A stretch of DNA of 64,000 nt from Flavobacterium sp. TR2 (GTDB lineage: Bacteria; Bacteroidota; Bacteroidia; Flavobacteriales; Flavobacteriaceae). The notes below the pieces were generated by a model, which did not search any database, was not told the DNA's origin, and saw only the letters and a list, made by a program, of their open reading frames with translations. Of the stretch, positions 37,970-50,958 are shown piece after piece; positions within the stretch are counted from its first letter, which is position 1; every line of letters starts with the position of its first letter. Location of the stretch: the NCBI RefSeq assembly GCF_025252405.1, contig NZ_CP104307.1:3162001-3226000 (forward strand). Direction: 5' to 3'. The position numbers and the translations under genes were made by a program.

Positions 37970-40249
37970 ATGAAGAAAAACTACTTTATAGCACTGCTGT
38001 TATTTTTTGCATTTCTTGCCCATGCGCAGACAAAAGTGCAAGGCGTTCTTAGAAATGATATTAAATTAAAAACAGCAACGCAAAAACAATTAAATGCAAA
38101 AAATGCCACTGCAACTACTTTTAATGATATTCAGTTTTGGGTCGGTACAGGTGCCAATAAAGCAGCATTTGCCGTGCAATGGAACGATGGGAAAAATGCA
38201 GACGCCTTAATCTGGGGATTTAAATGGGATGGAAGTGCAACTGGCGAAGATATGATGAAAGCCATTGCAAAAGCCGACCCTCGTTTTTACACTCTGCTGC
38301 TGCAAGGAACGCAATTTGGAACTGCGATTGGAGGGTTTGGTTTCGATTTGGACGGAGCCAACACAATTGGATTGTACAAAAGCGGCAATTTGACTTATCC
38401 TTATTATCCTGTGAGCGGTATTGTAAACACAGCAGCTTATGATTTTGACGAGTATACGCCAATTGATGCATCAGATCACTGGCAATCTGGCTGGACTGCT
38501 AAAGGATATTGGTCGTATTGGGTAAGAGATGATGTGAATAATAGTTTTGATTATTCTGGATTAGGTGCATCGAGCCGAGTGTTGCAAAATGGCTCTTGGG
38601 ACGTTTGGAATTTTAATGTTTCGTTCGTAGAAGAGCCTATTGCAACATTTACCCCTGTAGCACCTTACTCGAACGCAATAGACTTTACAAAAGGGTATTT
38701 CATGGTAAATGAAGAATGGTTTGGACATACTAATGGATCTGTAAACTTTGTCAGTAATGATGGGAAAATTAATTATAGGGTTTATAGTGGTGTAAATGAA
38801 AATAAAGCTTTTGGCGCTACTACGCAATATGGAACTATTTATGGAGATAAATTTTATTTTGTTTCTAAGCAAGCTAAAGATGGAGGCGATACGCAATATA
38901 CTCCAGGCGGAAGGCTAGTTGTTGCCGATGCTCTAACAATGAAAACTCTTGCAGAATTTGATAATATAGGAGGAGGAGATGGACGCTCTTTTGTTGGAGT
39001 TGATGAAAAAACAGGATATATAGGCGCTTCAAACGGAGTTTTTGTTTTTGATATTGTCAATAAGAAAGTAGGAACTCTCATTGCAGGAACAGGAGGCGGA
39101 AGCCAGTATGCGGGTCAGATTGGAAACATGATTCGTACTTCTCAATATGTTTTTGCCGTAAAACAAAATGCTGGAATTTTGGTCATTGATCCTAAAACAA
39201 ATACGGTAATTAAAACTATTGCAGGTGCATTTCATTCGGTTACGCAATCTAAAGACGGAAGTATTTGGGGAATTCAAAACAAGAAATTAATTAATATTGA
39301 CCAGCTGACTTTTGCAACGATTGAATATGCCATTCCAACCACCCAATATTTGGGATCTTGGGGAGCGTGGAATGCGGGTAGCTTTACGTATAGCAATAAA
39401 GAAAATGCTTTGTATTGGATGAATTCCGTCAACGCATTTACTTCAGGCGTTCAAATTATAAAATTTGATGTGGCAACCAAGAAATTCAATGAAAGTTTTG
39501 CAACACTTCCGGGACAAACAGGAACTTTTAAGCAAATTCCTTATGGAGCAGCATTGAGAATCGATCCAGTTTCAGACAATTTAATTGTAAACACTACCGA
39601 GAGCGGATTTGGTCTACATTATCAAAAAAACTGGATTCATACTTTTGACAATACGGGAAAATTAATCGATACTAAAATTTTAAACGATTATTACTGGTTT
39701 CCAGCTATGACCGTATTTCCAGACAATGCAGCACCCGTTGTCAATTCCATTCTGCCATCGCAGGTTTCAACGGGAAGCCCGACAGTTATTGACTTAAAAA
39801 CAGTGGTTTCAGATGAAGACAATTTAGCTGCCGCCATTGTAAAAACAATCAAATCCAATAGTGACGAAGCTATTGTCTCGGCAGAAATAAATGCCAATGA
39901 AGAACTGATTTTAACTCCAAAAATAGGAGGAAAAGCAACAATTGTAATCAGTTTTAATTCTAATGGGAAAGTAGTTGAAAAATCGATTTTAGTTGATACA
40001 GCTGTTTTAGGAAGAGACGAATTCACGAAAGTGCAATTATCCATTTATCCAAATCCAGTTTCAGATTATCTGAATATCAGTTCAGAAGATGAAATTGTCG
40101 AAGCTGTAATTTATGATGTTAACGGAAGAGCCATCAACACGAGAATCAATAACAATCAAATTGATGTAAGCCATTTTGCTAAAGGATTTTACATTATCAA
40201 TATTGTAACCGATAAAGCGAAGTATACACACAAATTTATTAAAAGATAA
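37970..40249 (+). CDS. T9SS-exported propeller-like protein of the B12 operon
   Basis: This 759-aa secreted protein has a signal peptide (MKKNYFIALLLFFAFLAHAQ) and an N-terminal domain (about 40-220) with FWVGTGANKAAFAVQWNDGKNADALIWGFKWDG. A DUF5074/YncE-like propeller follows (about 230-580; RLVVADALTMKTLAEFD, GVFVFDIVNKKVGTLI, GILVIDPKTNTVIKTI). It has a VVNSILPSQVSTGSP linker domain and a T9SS sorting domain (about 688-759; VQLSIYPNPVSDYLN to YTHKFIKR). It would be anchored or released outside the cell. Position in a riboswitch operon suggests corrinoid binding. A repeat-containing 150-bp spacer precedes it, so expression may be partly separate. Confidence 0.82.
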   Translation: MKKNYFIALLLFFAFLAHAQTKVQGVLRNDIKLKTATQKQLNAKNATATTFNDIQFWVGTGANKAAFAVQWNDGKNADALIWGFKWDGSATGEDMMKAIAKADPRFYTLLLQGTQFGTAIGGFGFDLDGANTIGLYKSGNLTYPYYPVSGIVNTAAYDFDEYTPIDASDHWQSGWTAKGYWSYWVRDDVNNSFDYSGLGASSRVLQNGSWDVWNFNVSFVEEPIATFTPVAPYSNAIDFTKGYFMVNEEWFGHTNGSVNFVSNDGKINYRVYSGVNENKAFGATTQYGTIYGDKFYFVSKQAKDGGDTQYTPGGRLVVADALTMKTLAEFDNIGGGDGRSFVGVDEKTGYIGASNGVFVFDIVNKKVGTLIAGTGGGSQYAGQIGNMIRTSQYVFAVKQNAGILVIDPKTNTVIKTIAGAFHSVTQSKDGSIWGIQNKKLINIDQLTFATIEYAIPTTQYLGSWGAWNAGSFTYSNKENALYWMNSVNAFTSGVQIIKFDVATKKFNESFATLPGQTGTFKQIPYGAALRIDPVSDNLIVNTTESGFGLHYQKNWIHTFDNTGKLIDTKILNDYYWFPAMTVFPDNAAPVVNSILPSQVSTGSPTVIDLKTVVSDEDNLAAAIVKTIKSNSDEAIVSAEINANEELILTPKIGGKATIVISFNSNGKVVEKSILVDTAVLGRDEFTKVQLSIYPNPVSDYLNISSEDEIVEAVIYDVNGRAINTRINNNQIDVSHFAKGFYIINIVTDKAKYTHKFIKR

Positions 40250-41407: not shown

Positions 41408-43393
41408 ATGAATCAAGATTTCCCTATTCCCGACAACGAGTTACAGCGTTTAGCCGCCTTAAAGCGCTATAATATACTTGACACACTTCCAGATGATGCT
41501 TTTGACGATGCCACAAAGCTAGTTTCGTATATCTGCGGTGTTCCTATTGCCCATATTTCTTTTATTGATGAAAACAGGCAATGGTTCAAGTCTGAAATCG
41601 GAATAGGAGTTTCTGAAGTGCCTCGTGAAATCACTTTTTGCCAGTATACCATATTGGATACGAAAATGGTTGAAATAAACGACACTTTTTTGAACGAACG
41701 CTTTAAGGATGATCCGAATGTTACAGGAGGTTTTAACATAAGATTTTATGCAGGCGTGCCTCTTACAACACCAGACGGCTATAATATTGGGACGATTTGC
41801 GCAATTGACCATGTTGTAAAAGAACTGAATGAAAACCAGCGCAATGCCCTTTCTATCGTGGCAAAACACGTTATTGCACAGTTAGAGTTGGGAACAAAAA
41901 ACAGCCAATTGTATGCCCAGAGAAAAATTGCTGAGCGCGCGGTTTTGGCGCGAGACAGCTTTTTGGCGAATATGAGCCACGAGATTAGAACACCTTTAAA
42001 TGCTATTGTTGGTTTTACAGATTTGCTTGTCCAAACTAAGTTAGACGAAACTCAGCATGATTATATCGAAAGCGTTCAAATTGCCGGAGAAAGATTGCTT
42101 TTGATAGTAAATGATATTTTAGACCTTTCTAAAATTGAGTCGGGTAATTTAACGATCGAGTCAAATCCATTCAATTTAAAGAAAACGCTTAAGCATATTT
42201 ATAATCTGCTAAAGGTGAAAGTAAAAAGCGATGTCGATTTTAATCTCTTTCTGGATGCTGAAATGCCAGATATGGTTGTAGGCGATCAGGGGCGATTAAG
42301 CCAGATTTTGGTAAATCTTATTGGTAATGCGCTTAAATTTACAACTGAAGGAGAAGTTACGGTTTCAGTAAAAAAAATAGAGGAAACAGAAGATCGCTAT
42401 ACGCTTAAATTTTCGGTAAAAGATACTGGAATCGGAATCGCAAAAGATAAACTGGAAACCATTTTTGAACGATTTACTCAAGGAGAAGAAAGCACCACGC
42501 GAACATTTGGCGGGACAGGGCTTGGACTTAACATCGTAAAACAGCTGGTTGAACTGCAGAAAGGAGAAGTTCATGTAAAAAGCACTTTAAACCGCGGTTC
42601 TGAGTTTTACGTAATTATCTCGTATGAAAAAACAAATTTTGAAGAAACTGCAGTAAAAACCATTTCTAAAAATGATTTAGGAAATCTTAAAATATTGCTT
42701 TGCGAGGACAATGTCTTAAACCAAAAGCTAGCAAAAAGCGTAATTAATAATTTTGGCTTTGATCTGGATATTGCCAATAATGGAGAAGAAGGGATTGAAC
42801 TTTTATCGAAAAACGAATATGATTTGGTTTTAATGGACTTGCAGATGCCAGTTAAAGACGGATACCAAACCACAGAATACATTCGAAATGAAATGAATTC
42901 CAATATTCCGATTATCGCCATGACGGCGCATTCTCTGGTAGGAGAGCAGGAGCGCTGCTATAAATCGGGTATGGATGCCTATGTGCCGAAGCCTTTTAAA
43001 CAAGCCGTTCTTCTAAAAGCCATAAAAACAGTAATGACTCCAGATAGAGACACACATCATAAAAGAATTATTGATATGTCTTTCCTAGACGAAATGTCTG
43101 GCGGCGATTCTGAATTTAAGAAGGATATGGTAAATCTTTTTGTTGAAAAAATTCCGAATCAAGTGGCACAATTGGAAGAAGCATTTAAAAATACCGATTA
43201 TGACAGCGTAAAGAAACTGGCGCATAATATGAAATCAAGCATGGACATTTTTATGCTGCAGGATTTGAGCAATTGTCTGTCGATTATTGAAGAAGAAGCG
43301 TCATTTGGCAAATTTACTGCCGAAACATTAGATAAAGTAAATATTTTTAGCTGCGGAATAGAGGAAGTCGTTAAAATTTTAAAAGAGCTATGA
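41408..43393 (+). CDS. Hybrid sensor histidine kinase (GAF-HisKA-HATPase-REC-HPt)
   Basis: This 661-aa cytoplasmic phosphorelay kinase has a GAF domain (about 1-165, beginning NELQRLAALKRYNILDTLPDDAFDDATKLVSYICGVPIAHISFID), HisKA with phospho-acceptor H191 in NMSHEIRTPLNAI, and HATPase (about 300-405; DTGIGIAKDKLETIFERFTQG). A receiver with D477 in LMDLQMP and a C-terminal HPt with H606 in LAHNMKSSM complete the relay. No membrane segment is present, so the signal is probably internal, with the GAF domain a small-molecule sensor. It lies 74 bp before the response regulator of the glycosyltransferase operon, which it likely phosphorylates through its HPt. Confidence 0.93.
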   Translation: MNQDFPIPDNELQRLAALKRYNILDTLPDDAFDDATKLVSYICGVPIAHISFIDENRQWFKSEIGIGVSEVPREITFCQYTILDTKMVEINDTFLNERFKDDPNVTGGFNIRFYAGVPLTTPDGYNIGTICAIDHVVKELNENQRNALSIVAKHVIAQLELGTKNSQLYAQRKIAERAVLARDSFLANMSHEIRTPLNAIVGFTDLLVQTKLDETQHDYIESVQIAGERLLLIVNDILDLSKIESGNLTIESNPFNLKKTLKHIYNLLKVKVKSDVDFNLFLDAEMPDMVVGDQGRLSQILVNLIGNALKFTTEGEVTVSVKKIEETEDRYTLKFSVKDTGIGIAKDKLETIFERFTQGEESTTRTFGGTGLGLNIVKQLVELQKGEVHVKSTLNRGSEFYVIISYEKTNFEETAVKTISKNDLGNLKILLCEDNVLNQKLAKSVINNFGFDLDIANNGEEGIELLSKNEYDLVLMDLQMPVKDGYQTTEYIRNEMNSNIPIIAMTAHSLVGEQERCYKSGMDAYVPKPFKQAVLLKAIKTVMTPDRDTHHKRIIDMSFLDEMSGGDSEFKKDMVNLFVEKIPNQVAQLEEAFKNTDYDSVKKLAHNMKSSMDIFMLQDLSNCLSIIEEEASFGKFTAETLDKVNIFSCGIEEVVKILKEL

Positions 43394-43467
43394 TATAAGG
43401 GAAATATGCAGTAGCTTTATACTAATGATGATAATTTAGTTTGTCCCAAAGAGAAAAAAAATAAAAA

Positions 43468-43833
43468 ATGAGAATTATTGTAGCCGAAGATAATGATATC
43501 CTACGCAAATCGTTGTCTTTTTTCTTAGAGTCTAAAGGGTTTACGGTTGACCAGTTTTCTGATGGAAAAGAAGCTCTAGAAGCGATCGAAAAAGAAAACT
43601 ATGATTTAATACTGACCGATATAAATATGCCAGGAATCAGCGGAATGGAAATTACCCAGCACGTTAGAGAGAACCTAAAATCTGATATCCCTGTCATTAT
43701 ATTGACTTCTTCTGGGGTTGAGCAAACTGAGCTTGATTCTTTTGATATTGGGGCTAACGAATTTATTGCCAAGCCTGTAAGTCCAGCCGTACTTTTAGTT
43801 AGGATTAATAAATTGCTAAAAACCCGAATCTGA
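43468..43833 (+). CDS. Single-domain response regulator
   Basis: This 121-aa CheY-like receiver has no output domain. The acidic pocket is E7-D8 (VAEDND), phospho-acceptor D51 (LTDINMPG), and conserved K102 (AKPVS). Output must come through protein contact, either with a neighbouring operon protein or as a phosphate shuttle. Its stop codon shares a base with the start of the YaiO-like gene (TGATG), so the two are translated together. Candidate partners are the glycosyltransferase and HEAT-like protein. Confidence 0.93.
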   Translation: MRIIVAEDNDILRKSLSFFLESKGFTVDQFSDGKEALEAIEKENYDLILTDINMPGISGMEITQHVRENLKSDIPVIILTSSGVEQTELDSFDIGANEFIAKPVSPAVLLVRINKLLKTRI

Positions 43834-45047
43834 TGAAGTATATTTATAATTGCATTCTACTGCTTTTTATTTCTTCAATTGCTATTGGCCAAGAAATCAA
43901 TGTAGAGGAGACTTTAGCAAATGCAAGACAGGAAGCAGAAAAAGGAAATTATGATAAAGCCTTGTCTCTTATTGAGCCTCTACGCACGAAATATCCAGAA
44001 AACGAGGACGTACAGACTTTTGCAGGAAGAATTTACAGCTGGAAAAAAGACTATAAAACAGCGGTGAAAGTTTTATCTCCAATAGCTGATCGAAACAATC
44101 CGAATCCAGAAGCGTTGCAGGCGCTTATAAACGTTTATTTCTGGACAGAAGATTATGAAAAGTGTATTTCCTATTGTGATAAATATCTCGCTATAGATCC
44201 AAAATCGGTTGAGGTTTTGAAAATTAAGGCAACCTGTCTGGAAAAACTCAATCGCGATCAAGAAGCATTAGATCTAATAGAAAAATCGGCTTATATCGAT
44301 AATAGCACTCAAGCTTTTAGAGGGATCCGAACCCTTATCGGGCGTAAAGCAAAAAATGCAGTTTCGGCTTCTTACCTAAACATTTCAACATCAGATCCAG
44401 GGCAGCCGCCATTTCATTACGGATATGTAGAGTATTCGCATAAATTCAGCAAATCGGCAATCGTCGGAAGAGCGAATATCGGAAACATAGGAAGCGAAAC
44501 TCAAATGATGTTCGAAACCGATTTTTATCAGACCTTTTCAAACAAAAGCTATTTGTATGCAAATGCTGGGGTATCTACGGGAGAAACCATATTTCCTGTT
44601 GCCAAAGCAGGTTTAGAATATTATTTTGCTCCGCAAAAAAAGTTTGATTTTTCGCTAGGCGCAAGATTTATGCATTTTGATGCAGACGATATTACGCTGC
44701 TGACAGGGCAAGTGGCATACAATGCAGGAATTTACAGTTTTGCTTACAGACCTTATTATGATGTTTCGAACGAACTTTTTTCTCATGTTTTAAGCGTTCA
44801 GCGTGTAAATGAAGAAAAAGAACGTCTCATAAGATTGGAGCTGCAATACGGAAATGTTCCTTATTTGTATCTCTACAATAGTTTTACACAGCCTTTAAAA
44901 GCATATCGTGCCGGAATTCAGTATCAGCATCGTTTTGGAGACTCCTTTTTTGTTCGCCCTATTTTCCTTTACGAATACGAAGAATATACCCCAGGAGAAT
45001 ATAGAAATAAGTTTAATGTACAGTTAATTGTAACCAAACGTTTTTAA
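43833..45047 (+). CDS. TPR protein with YaiO-type outer-membrane barrel
   Basis: This 404-aa exported protein has a signal peptide (MKYIYNCILLLFISSIAIGQ) and three to four TPRs (about 25-165; ARQEAEKGNYDKALSLIEPLRTKYPENEDVQTFAGRIYSWKKDYKTAVKVL, EALQALINVYFWTEDYEKCISYCDKYLAIDP). It has a C-terminal barrel (about 180-404) of the YaiO family ending FNVQLIVTKRF. The TPR-plus-barrel layout is that of exopolysaccharide export porins such as PgaA and BcsC, although much smaller. Located next to a processive glycosyltransferase, it probably passes polymer through the outer membrane. Confidence 0.88.
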   Translation: MKYIYNCILLLFISSIAIGQEINVEETLANARQEAEKGNYDKALSLIEPLRTKYPENEDVQTFAGRIYSWKKDYKTAVKVLSPIADRNNPNPEALQALINVYFWTEDYEKCISYCDKYLAIDPKSVEVLKIKATCLEKLNRDQEALDLIEKSAYIDNSTQAFRGIRTLIGRKAKNAVSASYLNISTSDPGQPPFHYGYVEYSHKFSKSAIVGRANIGNIGSETQMMFETDFYQTFSNKSYLYANAGVSTGETIFPVAKAGLEYYFAPQKKFDFSLGARFMHFDADDITLLTGQVAYNAGIYSFAYRPYYDVSNELFSHVLSVQRVNEEKERLIRLELQYGNVPYLYLYNSFTQPLKAYRAGIQYQHRFGDSFFVRPIFLYEYEEYTPGEYRNKFNVQLIVTKRF

Positions 45048-45048
45048 G

Positions 45049-45870
45049 ATGACAGAAATCTGGGAGCTATATAAACACGGTCAGTGGGAAGTGCCTTTTC
45101 TCACTTTTTCCATATATCTGTTTGTAGTGGCCTCATTCATTTTATATCTAAGTATTGTAGCCAGCAGAAGCAGCAAAATAAAGAAAGAAAGGCTTAGTAA
45201 AGAATACGGTGCAGCGATAGACAAAGTACTGTCGGCCGTTATTTTTGAAGATGTCCCGTATGCTGAAATTATAAAAGACAAAAATTTTCAAGTGCTTTTT
45301 GACACCTCTTTTTTTAGAGAGGTTTTAATGGATTCCCTTATCAATCTGCATAAAAATTATGAAGGCGTTTATGCGCAGAAATTGGAACAGTTTTATAAAG
45401 ATTCTAGTTTAGTAAAAGTTTCCTTTAGAAAACTTAAAAGTTTAAAATGGGAAGTAAAATGTAAAGGAATTACAGAATTGGCAGAGTTTAATATTAAAGA
45501 AGCATTTGCTAAAACTATAGTTTATTCTAAAGCCAGAAATAAAACATTGAAAATTGTTGCTTTAAATGCCTGTATAAAACTTCAAGGCGCTAAAAGCATC
45601 AAATATTTAGTAGACCATTCTGATCCAATTGATGATTGGATGCAGTTGAATATTATTGGTGCCTTTAAAAAACATGATCTTGGTGACAGAGAGGGAATTG
45701 AGCATTTGTTGGAATCGCAGAATACAACAGTCATTACGCTTGGACTAAAACTTATAAAAGAACTTAAACTTACGCAGAAAGTTCCTCATGTAGCCCAATT
45801 GGCAGCTCACTCAACAAATACAATCATAAAATACGAAGCACAGAGCATTCTGCAGACATTAACAGTATAA
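45049..45870 (+). CDS. Membrane-anchored HEAT-like repeat protein
   Basis: This 273-aa protein starts one base after the YaiO-like gene. One N-terminal transmembrane helix (about 17-40, FLTFSIYLFVVASFILYLSIVA) is followed by a Lys-rich boundary and an all-helical cytoplasmic part. The latter (about 55-273) has two-helix repeats such as FAKTIVYSKARNKTLKIVALNACIKLQGAKSIKYLVDHS and VITLGLKLIKELKLTQKVPHVAQLAA, consistent with HEAT or ARM units. Such scaffolds bind partner proteins. Here it could link the response regulator to the glycosyltransferase. No enzyme motif is seen. Confidence 0.8.
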   Translation: MTEIWELYKHGQWEVPFLTFSIYLFVVASFILYLSIVASRSSKIKKERLSKEYGAAIDKVLSAVIFEDVPYAEIIKDKNFQVLFDTSFFREVLMDSLINLHKNYEGVYAQKLEQFYKDSSLVKVSFRKLKSLKWEVKCKGITELAEFNIKEAFAKTIVYSKARNKTLKIVALNACIKLQGAKSIKYLVDHSDPIDDWMQLNIIGAFKKHDLGDREGIEHLLESQNTTVITLGLKLIKELKLTQKVPHVAQLAAHSTNTIIKYEAQSILQTLTV

Positions 45871-45883
45871 ATGAGATAATGAA

Positions 45884-47317
45884 ATGACTTTTTTTACTAC
45901 TGAAATAACATGGTTTTTGGATGCATACATTCTCGTGATTCTTGGTTATGCCATATTAATCATGTCTTCTTATCTGATTTTGGCTTACCTTTCTACAAAA
46001 GAACTCAGGAATTATCTCAAAAGAAACAGTTTTGTAGATTACGATGTTTTATTGACCAGCGAATTTGCGCCAAAACTTTCGCTGATTGCACCCTCATATA
46101 ACGAAGGGCTTACAATAGAAGAAAATGTAAAATCGTTGCTTTCGCTGAATTACAATAATTATCAGGTTATTGTCGTAAATGATGGGAGCAAGGATAATTC
46201 GATGGAAATCCTGACCAAAACGTACGATCTTGTTTTAACAGATTTAGATATTCATCCAAAAATCGGAACTAAAAAAGTTAAAGGAATTTACACTTCAAGA
46301 AATGCCGCTTTCAAAAAACTGATTGTCGTTGACAAAGAAAACGGAGGCAAAGCAGATGCCTTAAATGTCGGGCTCAACATTGCGCAAAATCCTTATGTGG
46401 TTTGTATTGATGTAGATTGCATTCTTGATAAAGATTCGCTTTTAAAGTTGGCAAAACCCTTTTTGGAGTCTCATGGCAAACGCATTATTGCAACTGGAGG
46501 CGTGGTGCGAATTGCGAATCAATGTGTGATTAAAAACGGACGTTTGGTCGAGGTTCATGTGCCAGATATTATGCTGTCAAGAATTCAGGTTTTAGAATAC
46601 CTTAGAGCTTTTCTTTTGGGAAGAATGGCTTGGGGAAAACTGGACGGATTATTATTGATAAGCGGTGCTTTTGGAGCTTTTGATAAAGAAATTGCCCTGC
46701 TTTCTGGCGGTTACAGCACCAAAACAGTTGGTGAAGATATGGAGCTTATAGTGAGAATGCGCCGTTATATGCTGGATAATAATCTGCCTTATTCGGTGAG
46801 CTATATTCCAGATCCCCTTTGTTGGACCGAAACTCCTGAAGATTTTAAGATATTCAAAAAACAGCGCTCCCGCTGGATGAGAGGAACAATTGAAACATTA
46901 AGCATACACCGCAGAATGTTTCTTAATCCGAAATATAAGCTGTTGGGAATGTTGAGCGTGCCGTATTGGACTTTGTTTGAATTTTTAGCTCCAGCAATAG
47001 AATTTATCGGTTTGGCCATAACCGCTGTATTTATAATATTCGGTTTGCTTAACTGGCATTTTTTCTTTTTGCTGCTGCTTTTCGTATATTCGTTCGCAGT
47101 TTTCTTTTCGGTTATAGCTTTGTACAGCGAAGAGAAAACCTATCATAAATACCCTAAACAAGCAGATTTTTTCAAACTTTTAATGGCCGCTTTTATAGAA
47201 CCGTTTTATTTTCATCCGCTTACTGTATACGCTGCTTTGATTGGCTATAAAGAAAAAATTATGGGAACTAAAGGTTGGGGCGAAATGACTAGAAAAGGAT
47301 TTACTAAGAAAGAGTAA
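45884..47317 (+). CDS. Processive family 2 glycosyltransferase (polysaccharide synthase)
   Basis: This 477-aa inner-membrane GT2 enzyme resembles BcsA, PgaC and hyaluronan synthases. It has an N-terminal helix (about 13-37), a GT-A domain with D100 (VVNDGSKDNS), DVD motif at 176-178 (CIDVDC), catalytic GED at 283-285 (TVGEDMEL) and Q327-x-x-R330-W331 (KKQRSRWMRG). At least three C-terminal transmembrane helices follow (about 355-425). The full D-DxD-(E/T)D-QxxRW set marks a processive synthase. The sugar is not deducible. It is the core enzyme of the operon with the YaiO-like barrel and HEAT-like protein. Confidence 0.92.
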   Translation: MTFFTTEITWFLDAYILVILGYAILIMSSYLILAYLSTKELRNYLKRNSFVDYDVLLTSEFAPKLSLIAPSYNEGLTIEENVKSLLSLNYNNYQVIVVNDGSKDNSMEILTKTYDLVLTDLDIHPKIGTKKVKGIYTSRNAAFKKLIVVDKENGGKADALNVGLNIAQNPYVVCIDVDCILDKDSLLKLAKPFLESHGKRIIATGGVVRIANQCVIKNGRLVEVHVPDIMLSRIQVLEYLRAFLLGRMAWGKLDGLLLISGAFGAFDKEIALLSGGYSTKTVGEDMELIVRMRRYMLDNNLPYSVSYIPDPLCWTETPEDFKIFKKQRSRWMRGTIETLSIHRRMFLNPKYKLLGMLSVPYWTLFEFLAPAIEFIGLAITAVFIIFGLLNWHFFFLLLLFVYSFAVFFSVIALYSEEKTYHKYPKQADFFKLLMAAFIEPFYFHPLTVYAALIGYKEKIMGTKGWGEMTRKGFTKKE

Positions 47318-47320
47318 AAA

Positions 47321-47950
47321 ATGACAAAGAAAATTTTAATAGTTGATGATCATTTGGTTGTGAGAAATGGAGTGGCAATGATCTTGGAAAGGCAATTTGA
47401 AGATGTTGCCATTTCGAATGCCGAAAATTTCTTTGAAGCAGTAACGCTTTTGAAAAACCTTCCTTTTGATTTGGTTATTTTGGACATCAATATTCCGGGC
47501 GGAAAAAATACCGATATGATTACCGAAATACGAGCCATTCAGCCCGATGTAAAAATATTGGTTTTCTCAGCGCATGAAGAAGAACAGTATGCTATAAAAT
47601 ATCTGTCCTGCGGCGCCAATGGCTATGTAGACAAATTGTGCAGTGAAGAAAAAATCATGTTTGCCATTACTTCAATTTTGGAATCGGGAACTTATGTTTC
47701 TCCAGAATTGGTCAGTAAATTAGTAGGCAATCAGTCCAATAAAAGAAAAACAAATCCGTTGGAAGGGCTATCAAAAAGAGAACTTCAGATTACAGATTTG
47801 CTGGTGCAGGGAAACGGCAATTTAGAAATTTCAAATATTCTGAATATTCATGTGTCGACTGTGAGCACTTATAAAGCAAGGGTTTTTGAAAAATTAAAAG
47901 TCAATAATCTAGTGGAGCTCATTAATTTGTACAAAACTTTTCAAAGCTAA
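47321..47950 (+). CDS. LuxR/NarL-type response regulator
   Basis: This 209-aa transcription factor has a receiver with D9-D10 (LIVDDH) and phospho-acceptor D55 (VILDINIPGG), plus a C-terminal LuxR HTH (about 146-205; LSKRELQITDLLVQGNGNLEISNILNIHVSTVSTYKARVFEKLKVNNLVELINL). It follows the glycosyltransferase by 3 bp, so it is in the operon. It overlaps the convergent propeller kinase gene by 4 bp. That kinase or the hybrid kinase may be its phosphodonor. It probably controls the polysaccharide operon or biofilm genes. Confidence 0.93.
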   Translation: MTKKILIVDDHLVVRNGVAMILERQFEDVAISNAENFFEAVTLLKNLPFDLVILDINIPGGKNTDMITEIRAIQPDVKILVFSAHEEEQYAIKYLSCGANGYVDKLCSEEKIMFAITSILESGTYVSPELVSKLVGNQSNKRKTNPLEGLSKRELQITDLLVQGNGNLEISNILNIHVSTVSTYKARVFEKLKVNNLVELINLYKTFQS

Positions 47951-50900
47951 TTGTATTCAACCATTATCTCGATTGTTGTTCCTTTATCGATGTCGCTTAT
48001 AATGTTGATGTTTCCTTCAATAAGAATAAGAAGTTCAATAATCATATGAAGTCCGAGGTGGTAATTTTTTGAAATCGGATTTTTATAAAAATTATGGTAA
48101 TAGTCAATAAGCTCTTTGCTCATGCCTTTCCCATTATCTACAATTTTCAAGGTAAGCATATTTTTTTCAGCAGCAGACAACAGTTCGATTCTTCCGTTTC
48201 TAGTATTTTTAATGGCATTATCAATTAAGTTGTGAATAATGATTGAGAGCGCTTTTTTGTTTGTTCTAACGCAGAAATCTCTGTCTACATTGTTGATAAT
48301 GGCATTATTTTCTGCTTCGGCAATCTTTTCAAAAATCTGAATTCTTTCCTCGATTAATTGGTATAAAGAATAACTTTCTTCTTCTAGTTTTTTGCCTTCA
48401 ATAAAAATAGACGAATATTTGATAAGATTTTCGACATATTCATACAATTGAGAAGTTGAGGTTTGCAAAGTTCCCAATTGCTGTTTGAGCTTTGGATCGT
48501 CTTGAATAATGCTATTCTCAAAAAGATGTTTTATAGAAGAAGACAAGAACTTTAAAGGACTTTTGATGTCATGGCTAACACTTTTAACCAGCATTTCGTG
48601 CTGTTTAATTTCCTGTTTCAAGTTATTTTCGGTTTTCTCCAATTTTTTAACGGTAGAAGCCAATTTTTTGGTTTTTTTCGCAATTACCTCTTCCAGTTTT
48701 ATGCTTTTCATTTTCAAGTAATACAGCCTAATGTACCAGATGGCAATTACAAAACCAATGGCGAGAATCCAGCATAGAACGGTGAACCAAATGGTCTGGT
48801 AAAATTTTGCCGGCACAACCAGAATTACTTTTTTGTAGGCATAATTGGCAGCAAAACCAGACAAGCTTCTAAAAGTTAGGGTATAAGTTCCTGGAGGTAG
48901 TGTGGTAAAAGATATCGATTTATCCGCCTTTAGCCTTTCCCAGCGATCACTGCCAATTTTGTCCATTTTGGCTTCAATTGTCAGATTTTTAGGATTGCCA
49001 TAATAAGGATAAGAAACAAGAAAACTGACCCTTTGAAAATTATTCTCTAAAAAAATGGTGTCTTTCGGCAAAAGTGTTTTCTGATCCAAAAGAACCTTAT
49101 CTATAAAAAGTTCTTTGCCTGGCAGCAGAGGAGACACTTTATATGGATTAAAAAACACCATACCATTCATAGAAGGAAAAACAATCTCATTATTTTTCAG
49201 CAAATTTCCGCAAGGCTGGCATCCGCCATTAAATTCGCTAGTCAAAAAGCCATCGACTTTGTTGTATTGGTGGTAGTAGATAACCGTTTTTTTATTTCTG
49301 CAATAGTTAAGCAGCGCTTTTCTTGAAACCTGAAAGAGACCTTTATTGGTTGAGATCCAGAAAAAATGATTTTGATCCTCTATGATGCAATGTGCGGTAT
49401 TTAGCGCGTACTCTTCGTCTGTTGGAAAAGAATGTAAAACATGGTCAGAATACAAGTAAAATCCCTTCTCGTATGTCGTGAGCCACATTTTCTGATTGCT
49501 ATCGATAAAAATGCTCCTAATGCTTAATTTTTCGGTACCCGTGGCAAAATGTATTTTTTTTGACTTTAAATTATATTCAAACAATCCATCATTTCCTCCC
49601 AAATAAAGAGTGCTGCCTTGTTGGGCTATGTAATTAATGTTATGCCTGAAAATAGCCTCTAGCTTTACAGCTCCTTTTTTTATAGCATACAGTTTGGGTT
49701 TATGAAATTCATCAATACCCACAGCAACCCAGATGGTATTGCTATTATCCTTGAATATTGTTTTCGGATTTTGATTAAAGCGATAGGTGAGATGTTTTTT
49801 GTATCCCGATTTTTTTAAGTAGCAAAATACATTCATCGATCGGCTGATCCAGATGTTTTTTTCATCATCGAGCGCGATATTCAGACGCTCATCCAGAAAA
49901 ACACTTTTAGGAAATGAAATACTGTCTATAACTTTTTTGCTGTTAATGATTAACCCTTCAGAAGTGATAACAGTGCTGTCGTTGAGAGCTTGCGCAGCAT
50001 AGTACACTTCAGCTCTCCCGCTGTTGTTTGTGATCGATTTAAAAGCAGGAAAAGAAATAATGCACAAACCGTTGGTGCCGCTCCCTAAATACAGTTTTTG
50101 ATTTTCTGAATCGAAATAAACGGCAATGATATTGCTTGTTTCAAAATCCTTATACTCTACGATTAGCTGCGCTGTTAATTGGCTATTCTGATTTTTTAAC
50201 TGATATATTTTATTTTTTACGGAAAGAAAGACCTGTCCTGTTGTAATATTCCAATATAATTTGTGATTGCCTTTTAACAATAGCGCATTTAGTTTTCCAG
50301 AAGTCTTGCCATTTTTAGAGAAACAATAATAATTGCCAGTATCGGTGAGATAGAAAAGAGTATTGTTTATCGTAAAAAAGTTGAAAATATTATCATTTTG
50401 GAATGCGGTTTTAGAAATGATTTTTATTTTAGAATCGTACAATTCTACAGTTTCATTATCTATAAAAAAGATATTTCCGTTGGTGAGTTTAATATAATAA
50501 GGTTCGTGTTTATCAACCGTATTGTTTGAAGGAAGCCCATCATGGAAAAAATAACGTCTGCCGTTTCGGATTAGATTATAAGTAGGAGCATTTTTTTTGA
50601 GTATATGAACTTTGGTGTTTTTGATTAAGACAAGCTCTTTTTTGCTTTCATTAAAACTTGTAAGACTGTCTTTTTCGATGTTTCCAAAAATATCGGTGAA
50701 ACGGGTGTGTTCTAAAGAGGTGTTGGAGGAATTAAAAGCAAGAAAATTATTTCCGTCATAACGGACAATCCCATTTTCTGTTGTCATCCATATAAAATGA
50801 TGTTTGTCCTGAACGATTGCTTTTACGCTATTCTGTTGCAGTTCGTTATTGTCCGCAGTGTACCATCTGGCTCTGTAGTTTTCTTGGCAGACCATTTTGG

Positions 50901-50958
50901 TTGTCATAAGCAGCAGCAAAAAACAACGAAGATAAAGTGAGGCCCTTATTTTGAACAT
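47947..50958 (-). CDS. Two-component propeller sensor histidine kinase
   Basis: This 1003-aa membrane kinase has a signal peptide and a large periplasmic sensor with repeated propeller blades (VKAIVQDKHHFIWMTTENGIVRYDGNNF, NTIWVAVGID, FFWISTNKGLFQVSR). It has a Y_Y_Y domain (about 655-720), one transmembrane helix (about 730-755), HisKA with H796 in SVSHDIKSPLKFL, and HATPase (VDNGKGMSKELIDYYHNFY, HLGLHMIIELL). It resembles hybrid two-component systems but lacks the receiver and AraC output. It must therefore signal to a separate regulator, most simply the convergent LuxR-type protein at 47321. Such sensors often detect glycans. Confidence 0.92.
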   Translation of the reverse strand: MFKIRASLYLRCFLLLLMTTKMVCQENYRARWYTADNNELQQNSVKAIVQDKHHFIWMTTENGIVRYDGNNFLAFNSSNTSLEHTRFTDIFGNIEKDSLTSFNESKKELVLIKNTKVHILKKNAPTYNLIRNGRRYFFHDGLPSNNTVDKHEPYYIKLTNGNIFFIDNETVELYDSKIKIISKTAFQNDNIFNFFTINNTLFYLTDTGNYYCFSKNGKTSGKLNALLLKGNHKLYWNITTGQVFLSVKNKIYQLKNQNSQLTAQLIVEYKDFETSNIIAVYFDSENQKLYLGSGTNGLCIISFPAFKSITNNSGRAEVYYAAQALNDSTVITSEGLIINSKKVIDSISFPKSVFLDERLNIALDDEKNIWISRSMNVFCYLKKSGYKKHLTYRFNQNPKTIFKDNSNTIWVAVGIDEFHKPKLYAIKKGAVKLEAIFRHNINYIAQQGSTLYLGGNDGLFEYNLKSKKIHFATGTEKLSIRSIFIDSNQKMWLTTYEKGFYLYSDHVLHSFPTDEEYALNTAHCIIEDQNHFFWISTNKGLFQVSRKALLNYCRNKKTVIYYHQYNKVDGFLTSEFNGGCQPCGNLLKNNEIVFPSMNGMVFFNPYKVSPLLPGKELFIDKVLLDQKTLLPKDTIFLENNFQRVSFLVSYPYYGNPKNLTIEAKMDKIGSDRWERLKADKSISFTTLPPGTYTLTFRSLSGFAANYAYKKVILVVPAKFYQTIWFTVLCWILAIGFVIAIWYIRLYYLKMKSIKLEEVIAKKTKKLASTVKKLEKTENNLKQEIKQHEMLVKSVSHDIKSPLKFLSSSIKHLFENSIIQDDPKLKQQLGTLQTSTSQLYEYVENLIKYSSIFIEGKKLEEESYSLYQLIEERIQIFEKIAEAENNAIINNVDRDFCVRTNKKALSIIIHNLIDNAIKNTRNGRIELLSAAEKNMLTLKIVDNGKGMSKELIDYYHNFYKNPISKNYHLGLHMIIELLILIEGNINIISDIDKGTTIEIMVEYN

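Follow-up and report, generated by a model that had tools for sequence, protein, structure and literature searches.

Control of synthase-dependent polysaccharide production is, in a passage of one article, described as "frequently" based on cyclic di-GMP (c-di-GMP), and the same article describes in part how, in Myxococcus xanthus, a phosphorylated single-domain receiver, EpsW, activates the polysaccharide-synthesis enzyme EpsZ (PMC12802240). Passages on Shewanella report an interaction of the chemotaxis receiver CheY3 with the effector MxdA, and a requirement for CheY3 in biofilm formation (PMC3691769, PMC7666153), and BcsE is described in a further passage as carrying a degenerate receiver-GGDEF tandem, with c-di-GMP as the signal (PMC7439463). 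Here we describe an operon at 41408..47950 of a 64,000-nucleotide stretch (the window) of the Flavobacterium sp. TR2 genome (contig NZ_CP104307.1, positions 3,162,001 to 3,226,000 of the forward strand), in which a receiver gene is found together with the genes of a membrane-anchored HEAT-repeat protein and a glycosyltransferase family 2 (GT2) synthase, a gene set for which searches of open-licence PubMed Central text returned no description. Judged by sequence, the pairing of HEAT with GT2, which spans many phyla and reaches beyond the Flavobacterium lineage, is, of our findings, the one with the strongest support and the widest reach. We lean, with moderate confidence, towards the view that these genes encode an undescribed class of synthase-dependent exopolysaccharide machine, in which the phosphorylated receiver acts through the HEAT protein on the synthase.

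Results

Organization of the locus

Six open reading frames (ORFs) lie on the plus strand of the window, with successive gaps of 74, -1, 1, 13 and 3 bp, so that coordinates, strand and spacing all agree with the original prediction of six co-directional genes separated by -1 to 74 bp. The host genome measures 5.1 Mb, and near relatives (n = 17) are loci whose HEAT protein is at least 50% identical to that of the window.

41408..43393, plus strand: hybrid histidine kinase, soluble, with no transmembrane (TM) segments predicted; assigned by Pfam and NCBIfam domains; kept in 17/17 near relatives
43468..43833, plus strand: single-domain receiver, the proposed synthase switch; kept in 17/17 near relatives
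43833..45047, plus strand: TPR and YaiO outer-membrane barrel protein with an N-terminal signal-like segment, the proposed exporter; kept in 14/17 near relatives
45049..45870, plus strand: membrane-anchored HEAT-repeat protein, one N-terminal TM segment followed by a predicted cytosolic solenoid, the proposed adaptor between synthase and receiver
45884..47317, plus strand: GT2 synthase of the processive type with flanking TM segments and the D, DxD, ED, QxxRW set
47321..47950, plus strand: REC-GerE regulator (LuxR/NarL type), co-directional with the operon and conserved with it in 1/17 near relatives

By Pfam the kinase consists of a weak GAF_2 match below cut-off, HisKA, HATPase_c, REC and a C-terminal Hpt domain that falls just under its cut-off (24.4 versus 24.6 bits), with the histidine present in AHNMKSSM; the respective motifs start at residues 190 (SHEIRTPL, HisKA), 477 (DLQMP, REC) and 605 (AHNMKSSM, Hpt). 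Counting the borderline Hpt and the further, separate receiver, all parts of a multistep phosphorelay are present, and the phosphorylation residues of the window receiver are intact (acidic pair E7/D8, D51 and K102). The YaiO barrel exceeds its curated cut-offs (PF19413, 127.9 versus 23.9 bits; TIGR04390, 157 versus 32 bits) and is the sole YaiO match of the genome. The GT2, with motifs NDGS (99), DVDC (176), GED (283) and QRSRW (327), is likewise the genome's only match of its kind at E≤1e-10. Pfam, NCBIfam and motif searches thus bear out the predicted hybrid kinase, receiver, TPR-YaiO protein, GT2 with its full motif set and LuxR-type regulator.

Conservation of the HEAT-GT2 pair

The hybrid kinase, receiver, HEAT and GT2 genes occur together in 17/17 near relatives. 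In 14 of these (HEAT identity 61–84%) a YaiO gene stands between the receiver and HEAT genes, a count that is no free test because these relatives were preselected for YaiO beside HEAT; in the 16 kb fetched around the near relatives L042, L043 and L044 (HEAT identity 50–59%), YaiO was not seen. The prediction that all six genes form one system is narrowed accordingly to the kinase, receiver, HEAT and GT2 genes, with YaiO an optional member and the LuxR-type regulator a peripheral one. The neighbourhood survey did not find the genes apart in most relatives, which had been named as the outcome that would count against a system; the core stays together in every near relative and HEAT-GT2 adjacency recurs across many phyla.

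Beyond the near relatives, 40 HEAT-centred Bacteroidota regions were hand-picked from two HEAT searches; joined by 14 relatives and the window, they account for each of the 40 places in the single-sequence phylum search, and 27 of the 48 places of the other search, the weaker ones, lie outside the sample. GT2 directly follows HEAT in 40/40 of these regions. A further sample, obtained by running a GT2 alignment against the genome contigs of GTDB, comprises the best 80 of at least 407 confirmed candidates by similarity to one GT2, and is not a random sample. At these loci HEAT was sought within 1.5 kb upstream of GT2, and the receiver within 3.3 kb upstream or 4 kb downstream. The receiver, YaiO and GT2 profiles were built solely from Bacteroidota loci; the HEAT profile was iterated by adding sequences that scored above 25 bits and were adjacent to GT2, with a counting threshold of 12 bits and off-target rows as the control. 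HEAT was found upstream in the orientation of GT2, or within the GT2 ORF itself (L134, L159), at 75/80 loci with the iterated profile and at 60/80 without iteration. The five misses comprise three contig ends (L105, L142, L162) and two N-terminally extended fusions (L131, L148). Elsewhere among the 3491 ORFs the profile matched in three rows, two of which fall in another part of a protein already matched and the third in an additional HEAT gene, and it gave 0 matches in the yai, pga and bcs regions of E. coli K-12 (139 ORFs). The observed gene grouping is far beyond chance.

From their record titles, we take the 80 loci to come from Bacteroidota, Gemmatimonadetes, Bdellovibrio, Bacillota, alpha- and gammaproteobacteria, Myxococcota, Terriglobia, Elusimicrobia, Sphaerochaeta, Patulibacter and others, with the reservation that some titles of metagenome-assembled genomes (MAGs) may be misbinned. 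The module also occurs in records titled Thermoplasmatota archaeon (L127) and Beijerinckiaceae (L145), which are perhaps misbinned MAG contigs; the gene order of L145 is like that of the Bacteroidota loci L135 and L144.

The HEAT protein and its fusions with the synthase

Taken alone, the window protein scores under the Pfam cut-off (HEAT_2, 14.3 versus 27.7 bits). Against the PDB, its family profile finds designed HEAT-type (alphaRep) repeats with E values as low as 2.7e-80, and the structural model of the protein is an all-helical solenoid behind a single N-terminal TM helix (predicted local distance difference test (pLDDT) 86.8, predicted template modelling score (pTM) 0.74). By family profile and predicted fold, the protein belongs to the HEAT-repeat proteins, in keeping with the HEAT-like label given to it originally. 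Its named relatives are Flavobacterium and one Flavobacteriaceae bacterium (120 listed of 183). Within the phylum, the single sequence finds 36/296 genomes at E≤1e-3 and the family profile 63/296 at E≤1e-10, among which weak partial matches may be other HEAT proteins. Among the close relatives L164 to L177, HEAT is the most divergent core gene (61–84% identity to the window), as compared to 87–95% for GT2 and 82–99% for the receiver.

At four loci (L131, L134, L148 and L159) HEAT and GT2 are parts of a single protein in which a TM segment is followed by a long domain, an added TM segment and then GT2. HEAT_2 passes its cut-off of 27.7 bits in L134 (30 bits) and falls short of it in L159 (24.3 bits), and the domain of L131 is assigned to HEAT from aligned relatives and a predicted helical model. 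The added TM segment is present in 4/4 of the fusions examined and, from hydropathy and charge, would keep HEAT and the catalytic domain both cytosolic. L131 as the query found 1570 proteins at E≤1e-3; among the best 120 of these, 112 measure 912–972 aa, 11 carry a precomputed HEAT_2 domain, and the names include Bacillota, Acholeplasma, Mariniplasma and Izemoplasmatales. The L131 model (mean pLDDT 89) is helical throughout its N-terminal part, and its pTM of 0.86 suggests that, on the whole, this domain is positioned with confidence against the synthase; though it contains no receiver, the model is the nearest proxy for contact among receiver, HEAT and synthase. Foldseek places hyaluronan synthases at the top of its matches, with cellulose and chitin synthases within the best 50.

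Several HEAT-linked GT2 ORFs reach 1134–1270 aa (L053, L054, L056, L058, L062, L066, L067, L069 and L072). In 3/3 that were scanned (L054, L066, L067), an LtaS-like PF00884 domain lies C-terminally on GT2, after several TM segments; in L051 PF00884 forms a protein of its own, encoded between the GT2 and YaiO genes, and in L112 a similar protein has matches to VP1736 and to lipoteichoic acid primase/synthase structures. The LtaS-like domain suggests that at such loci a phospho-group is added to the polymer on the outer side of the membrane.

Receivers across loci

A receiver lies upstream in 34/40 Bacteroidota regions and at 46/80 GT2 loci, and is C-terminal in its own ORF in 34/34 and 45/46 of these, respectively. 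A receiver solely downstream was found in 0/40 regions and at 5/80 loci. Among the nearest receivers examined (n = 55), 37 are single-domain proteins and 18 are parts of larger proteins, the receiver being in several non-Bacteroidota phyla the C-terminal domain of such proteins. The acidic pair, D51 and K102 are intact in 34/37 single-domain receivers; in the Bacteroidota receiver set D51 is kept in 34/36 and K102 in 36/36. Receivers in which D51 is replaced by E are concentrated in the larger proteins (8/18 versus 1/37; Fisher p 2.6e-4), an enrichment that suits a docking module. Pfam finds a GGDEF domain in 4 of the 9 larger receiver proteins scanned (L094, L117, L131, L134), and a pattern search found the GGDEF motif in none of the 18 larger proteins, these four included.

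The Bacteroidota receiver profile was run on the genomes of 18 of the 80 loci, all non-Bacteroidota, with places matched by coordinates and ORF length. The HEAT-linked receiver ranks first in 5/18 of these genomes, each with 45–66 matches: a Mesorhizobium (48), a Rhodospirillales (66), an Elusimicrobia (45) and two Stutzerimonas (65 and 64), the last two of which are not independent. These are 5 of the 6 genomes with an upstream single-domain receiver. Distances between receivers co-vary with those between HEAT proteins beyond what GT2 explains (partial r 0.32, permutation p 0.0005, 67 loci; 0.30 on 43 non-redundant loci), in both cases without species-tree control.

YaiO, LuxR and neighbouring genes

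The position of YaiO varies: it lies between the receiver and HEAT, after GT2 (often so in distant Bacteroidota) or off-locus. Of the 40 Bacteroidota regions, 25 have a YaiO-like match in the same orientation, 8 have one solely on the opposite strand, and 7 have none within the stretch fetched. At the 80 GT2 loci it is on the same strand in 42 at 30 bits and in 34 at 100 bits, the 30-bit counts being upper bounds because the profile catches BcsC but not E. coli YaiO. None was seen in the Bacillota loci among the 80. Upstream of HEAT-GT2 some Bacillota encode large proteins of 707–1016 aa (L087:2817-4937, L096:2800-5847, L129:3513-5771), for which Pfam returned no match at E≤0.01; a possible role is that of a partner in cells without an outer membrane.

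The gene that converges on the LuxR-type regulator is the following.

47947-50958, minus strand: Reg_prop/Y_Y_Y sensor kinase, overlapping the regulator by 4 bp

The regulator and this convergent kinase stand beside the operon in 1/17 near relatives (L167), which rules out LuxR as a core member. At 37970-40249 (plus strand), after two further co-directional ORFs, there is a DUF5074 protein whose C-terminal tail is of the type IX secretion kind.

Components of known systems

In the host genome there were 0 matches to PilZ (PF07238; 5/14 controls positive), to PgaD (PF13994; E. coli control positive) and to BcsB (PF03170; E. coli and B. subtilis controls positive). GGDEF had no match in the genome or in the operon, and was matched in 1/21 genomes overall. 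The predicted absence of PgaB, PgaD, BcsB and PilZ thus holds genome-wide for the last three; for PgaB it holds, by Pfam, for the operon and three neighbouring ORFs. With neither a GGDEF nor a PilZ match in its genome, control by c-di-GMP appears unlikely in the host.

The best NCBIfam match of the GT2 is PgaC/IcaA (TIGR03937), at 128.7 bits far below the equivalog cut-off of 422.3, and BcsA/CelA (TIGR03030) reaches 28.5 bits versus a cut-off of 699.1. On the Bacteroidota GT2 profile E. coli PgaC scores 113, YaiP 49 and BcsA 25, as compared to at least 373 for the 80 linked GT2s. In a tree rooted on BcsA all 121 linked GT2s stand apart from E. coli PgaC, YaiP and BcsA; with a node support of only 0.54, their separation rests on the score gap. 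These scores, together with the lack of PgaD, BcsB and PilZ matches, led us to reject plain membership in the Pga or Bcs systems.

Discussion

We propose that the processive GT2 synthase and the membrane-anchored HEAT protein, whose pairing is shown by conservation and natural fusions, would together form an inner-membrane core in direct contact, and that the YaiO/TPR protein, judged by its family, would carry the polymer across the outer membrane. From its domain order, the hybrid kinase may pass phosphate to its own REC domain, from there to its own Hpt domain and on to the single-domain receiver, which once phosphorylated would dock on the HEAT solenoid and allow or raise synthase activity. 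The docked receiver would then do the job that c-di-GMP does in the Bcs, Pga and Pel systems. Where the receiver is the end domain of a larger protein and often degenerate or changed from D51 to E, it may be a permanently docked module, control having moved to the other domains. The receiver switch is the bold part of this reading. That a phosphorelay replaces c-di-GMP had been suggested originally; the lack of GGDEF and PilZ matches in the host genome fits an organism free of c-di-GMP.

Several observations weigh against this reading. Contact of the receiver with HEAT or GT2 is something that we infer, and the receiver is not obligatory: an upstream receiver is absent from 6/40 regions and 34/80 GT2 loci, and, as less than 2 kb of upstream sequence was available in only 7 of these 34, contig ends do not account for most of the absences. 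Receivers in larger proteins are degenerate in 12/18 cases. On the receiver profile the linked receiver of multi-domain loci ranked 5th of 53 (L085), 7th of 33 (L087) and 9th of 103 (L095), that of the remaining multi-domain loci was not among the matches listed, and that of Bdellovibrio L086 was not favoured. Receiver and GT2 distances also co-vary beyond HEAT (0.25, or 0.14 on non-redundant loci, again without species-tree control). On the side of HEAT, fold searches return only generic or designed solenoids, and the helical domain of the L131 fusion was found as HEAT neither by Pfam nor by profile. YaiO is not obligatory either, having no match in 7/40 regions and 33/80 loci at 30 bits and in 7/40 and 42/80 at 100 bits, and its profile scores E. 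coli BcsC at 44.7 bits and omits E. coli YaiO.

Alternatively, one could envision HEAT-GT2 as a constitutive synthase core, with HEAT needed for assembly, stability or localisation in the manner of PgaD or BcsB, and with the receiver and kinase regulating something else in the pathway. The greater constancy of HEAT (75/80 loci, versus 46/80 for the receiver) would fit such a core, as would the fusions examined, all of which join HEAT to GT2; receiver-HEAT or receiver-GT2 fusions were not noticed, although no systematic search for them was made. However, the receiver is the usual upstream gene or domain, its D-to-E changes in larger proteins are of the kind expected of a docking module, and its partial co-variation with HEAT would be less readily accommodated, so that we regard a constitutive core as rather unlikely. 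Trimming of a Pga or Bcs system, with the missing parts encoded elsewhere in the genome, could be read from the PgaC/IcaA match of the GT2 and from the TPR-barrel exporter, but matches so far below the family cut-offs, the gap between PgaC, YaiP or BcsA and the linked GT2s on the GT2 profile, and the lack of PgaD, BcsB and PilZ matches in the host genome make this very improbable.

The receiver might instead be a phosphate sink or a relay intermediate, with control exerted at transcription through the LuxR-type regulator or others. In the window that regulator and the Reg_prop kinase do adjoin the operon; yet they do so in a single near relative of the 17, as compared to a receiver in all of them, and we consider control of this kind improbable. 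Preferring the docked receiver as the switch, one may ask how far it extends. We tentatively suggest, as a possibility somewhat short of probable, that HEAT-GT2 is the core of an undescribed, cross-phylum class of polysaccharide synthase that generally takes its input from a receiver domain docked on HEAT: a single-domain, phospho-switched and c-di-GMP-free input in Bacteroidota, a single-domain one in several Proteobacteria, and a frozen D-to-E docking domain within larger proteins, some with a motif-less GGDEF domain, of other phyla.

If this is true, a widespread HEAT and receiver synthase class would answer how a Flavobacterium with no GGDEF or PilZ match gates its matrix polymer. It would also assign a role to an unnamed HEAT family and offer a marker by which unknown polymers could be sought across many phyla, among them Acholeplasma-type bacteria, which are not known to have a cell wall and whose HEAT and synthase are joined in a single chain.

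Compared with known systems, the E. coli yaiO-yaiX-yaiP-yaiS region is similar in having a YaiO barrel near a GT2 gene, but it yields neither HEAT nor receiver matches, and YaiP falls well outside the linked GT2s in score. The Pga system shares a distantly PgaC-like GT2 and a TPR-barrel exporter; the present locus differs in having no PgaD match genome-wide and no PgaB in the operon, and in its YaiO-type exporter and HEAT partner. In the Shewanella Mxd system, MxdA is GGDEF-like. The likeness there lies in the GT2-type MxdB, so classed from its description, and in the receiver input, whereas the effector binds c-di-GMP and MxdC is described in these passages as efflux-pump-like (PMC3691769, PMC7666153). 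With Bcs the locus shares a processive GT2 and TPR-barrel export. Bcs has a receiver-GGDEF tandem in its regulator BcsE (PMC7439463), and some HEAT-GT2 relatives also combine a receiver with a GGDEF domain, there a motif-less one. The locus differs from Bcs in that BcsB and PilZ are absent here and that the E. coli bcs region has no HEAT match. A HEAT partner is described in none of the passages on the nearest precedents, EpsW/EpsZ, Mxd and BcsE (PMC12802240, PMC3691769, PMC7666153, PMC7439463). EpsZ is, in the passage describing it, a phosphoglycosyl transferase of the Wzx/Wzy pathway (PMC12802240), and the enzyme of this operon is a GT2 synthase instead of a large monotopic phosphoglycosyl transferase. 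The window receiver is, like EpsW, single-domain and has its phosphorylation residues, and the action that we propose for it would resemble that described for EpsW and EpsZ, in which a single-domain phospho-receiver acts post-translationally on a membrane glycan enzyme (PMC12802240).

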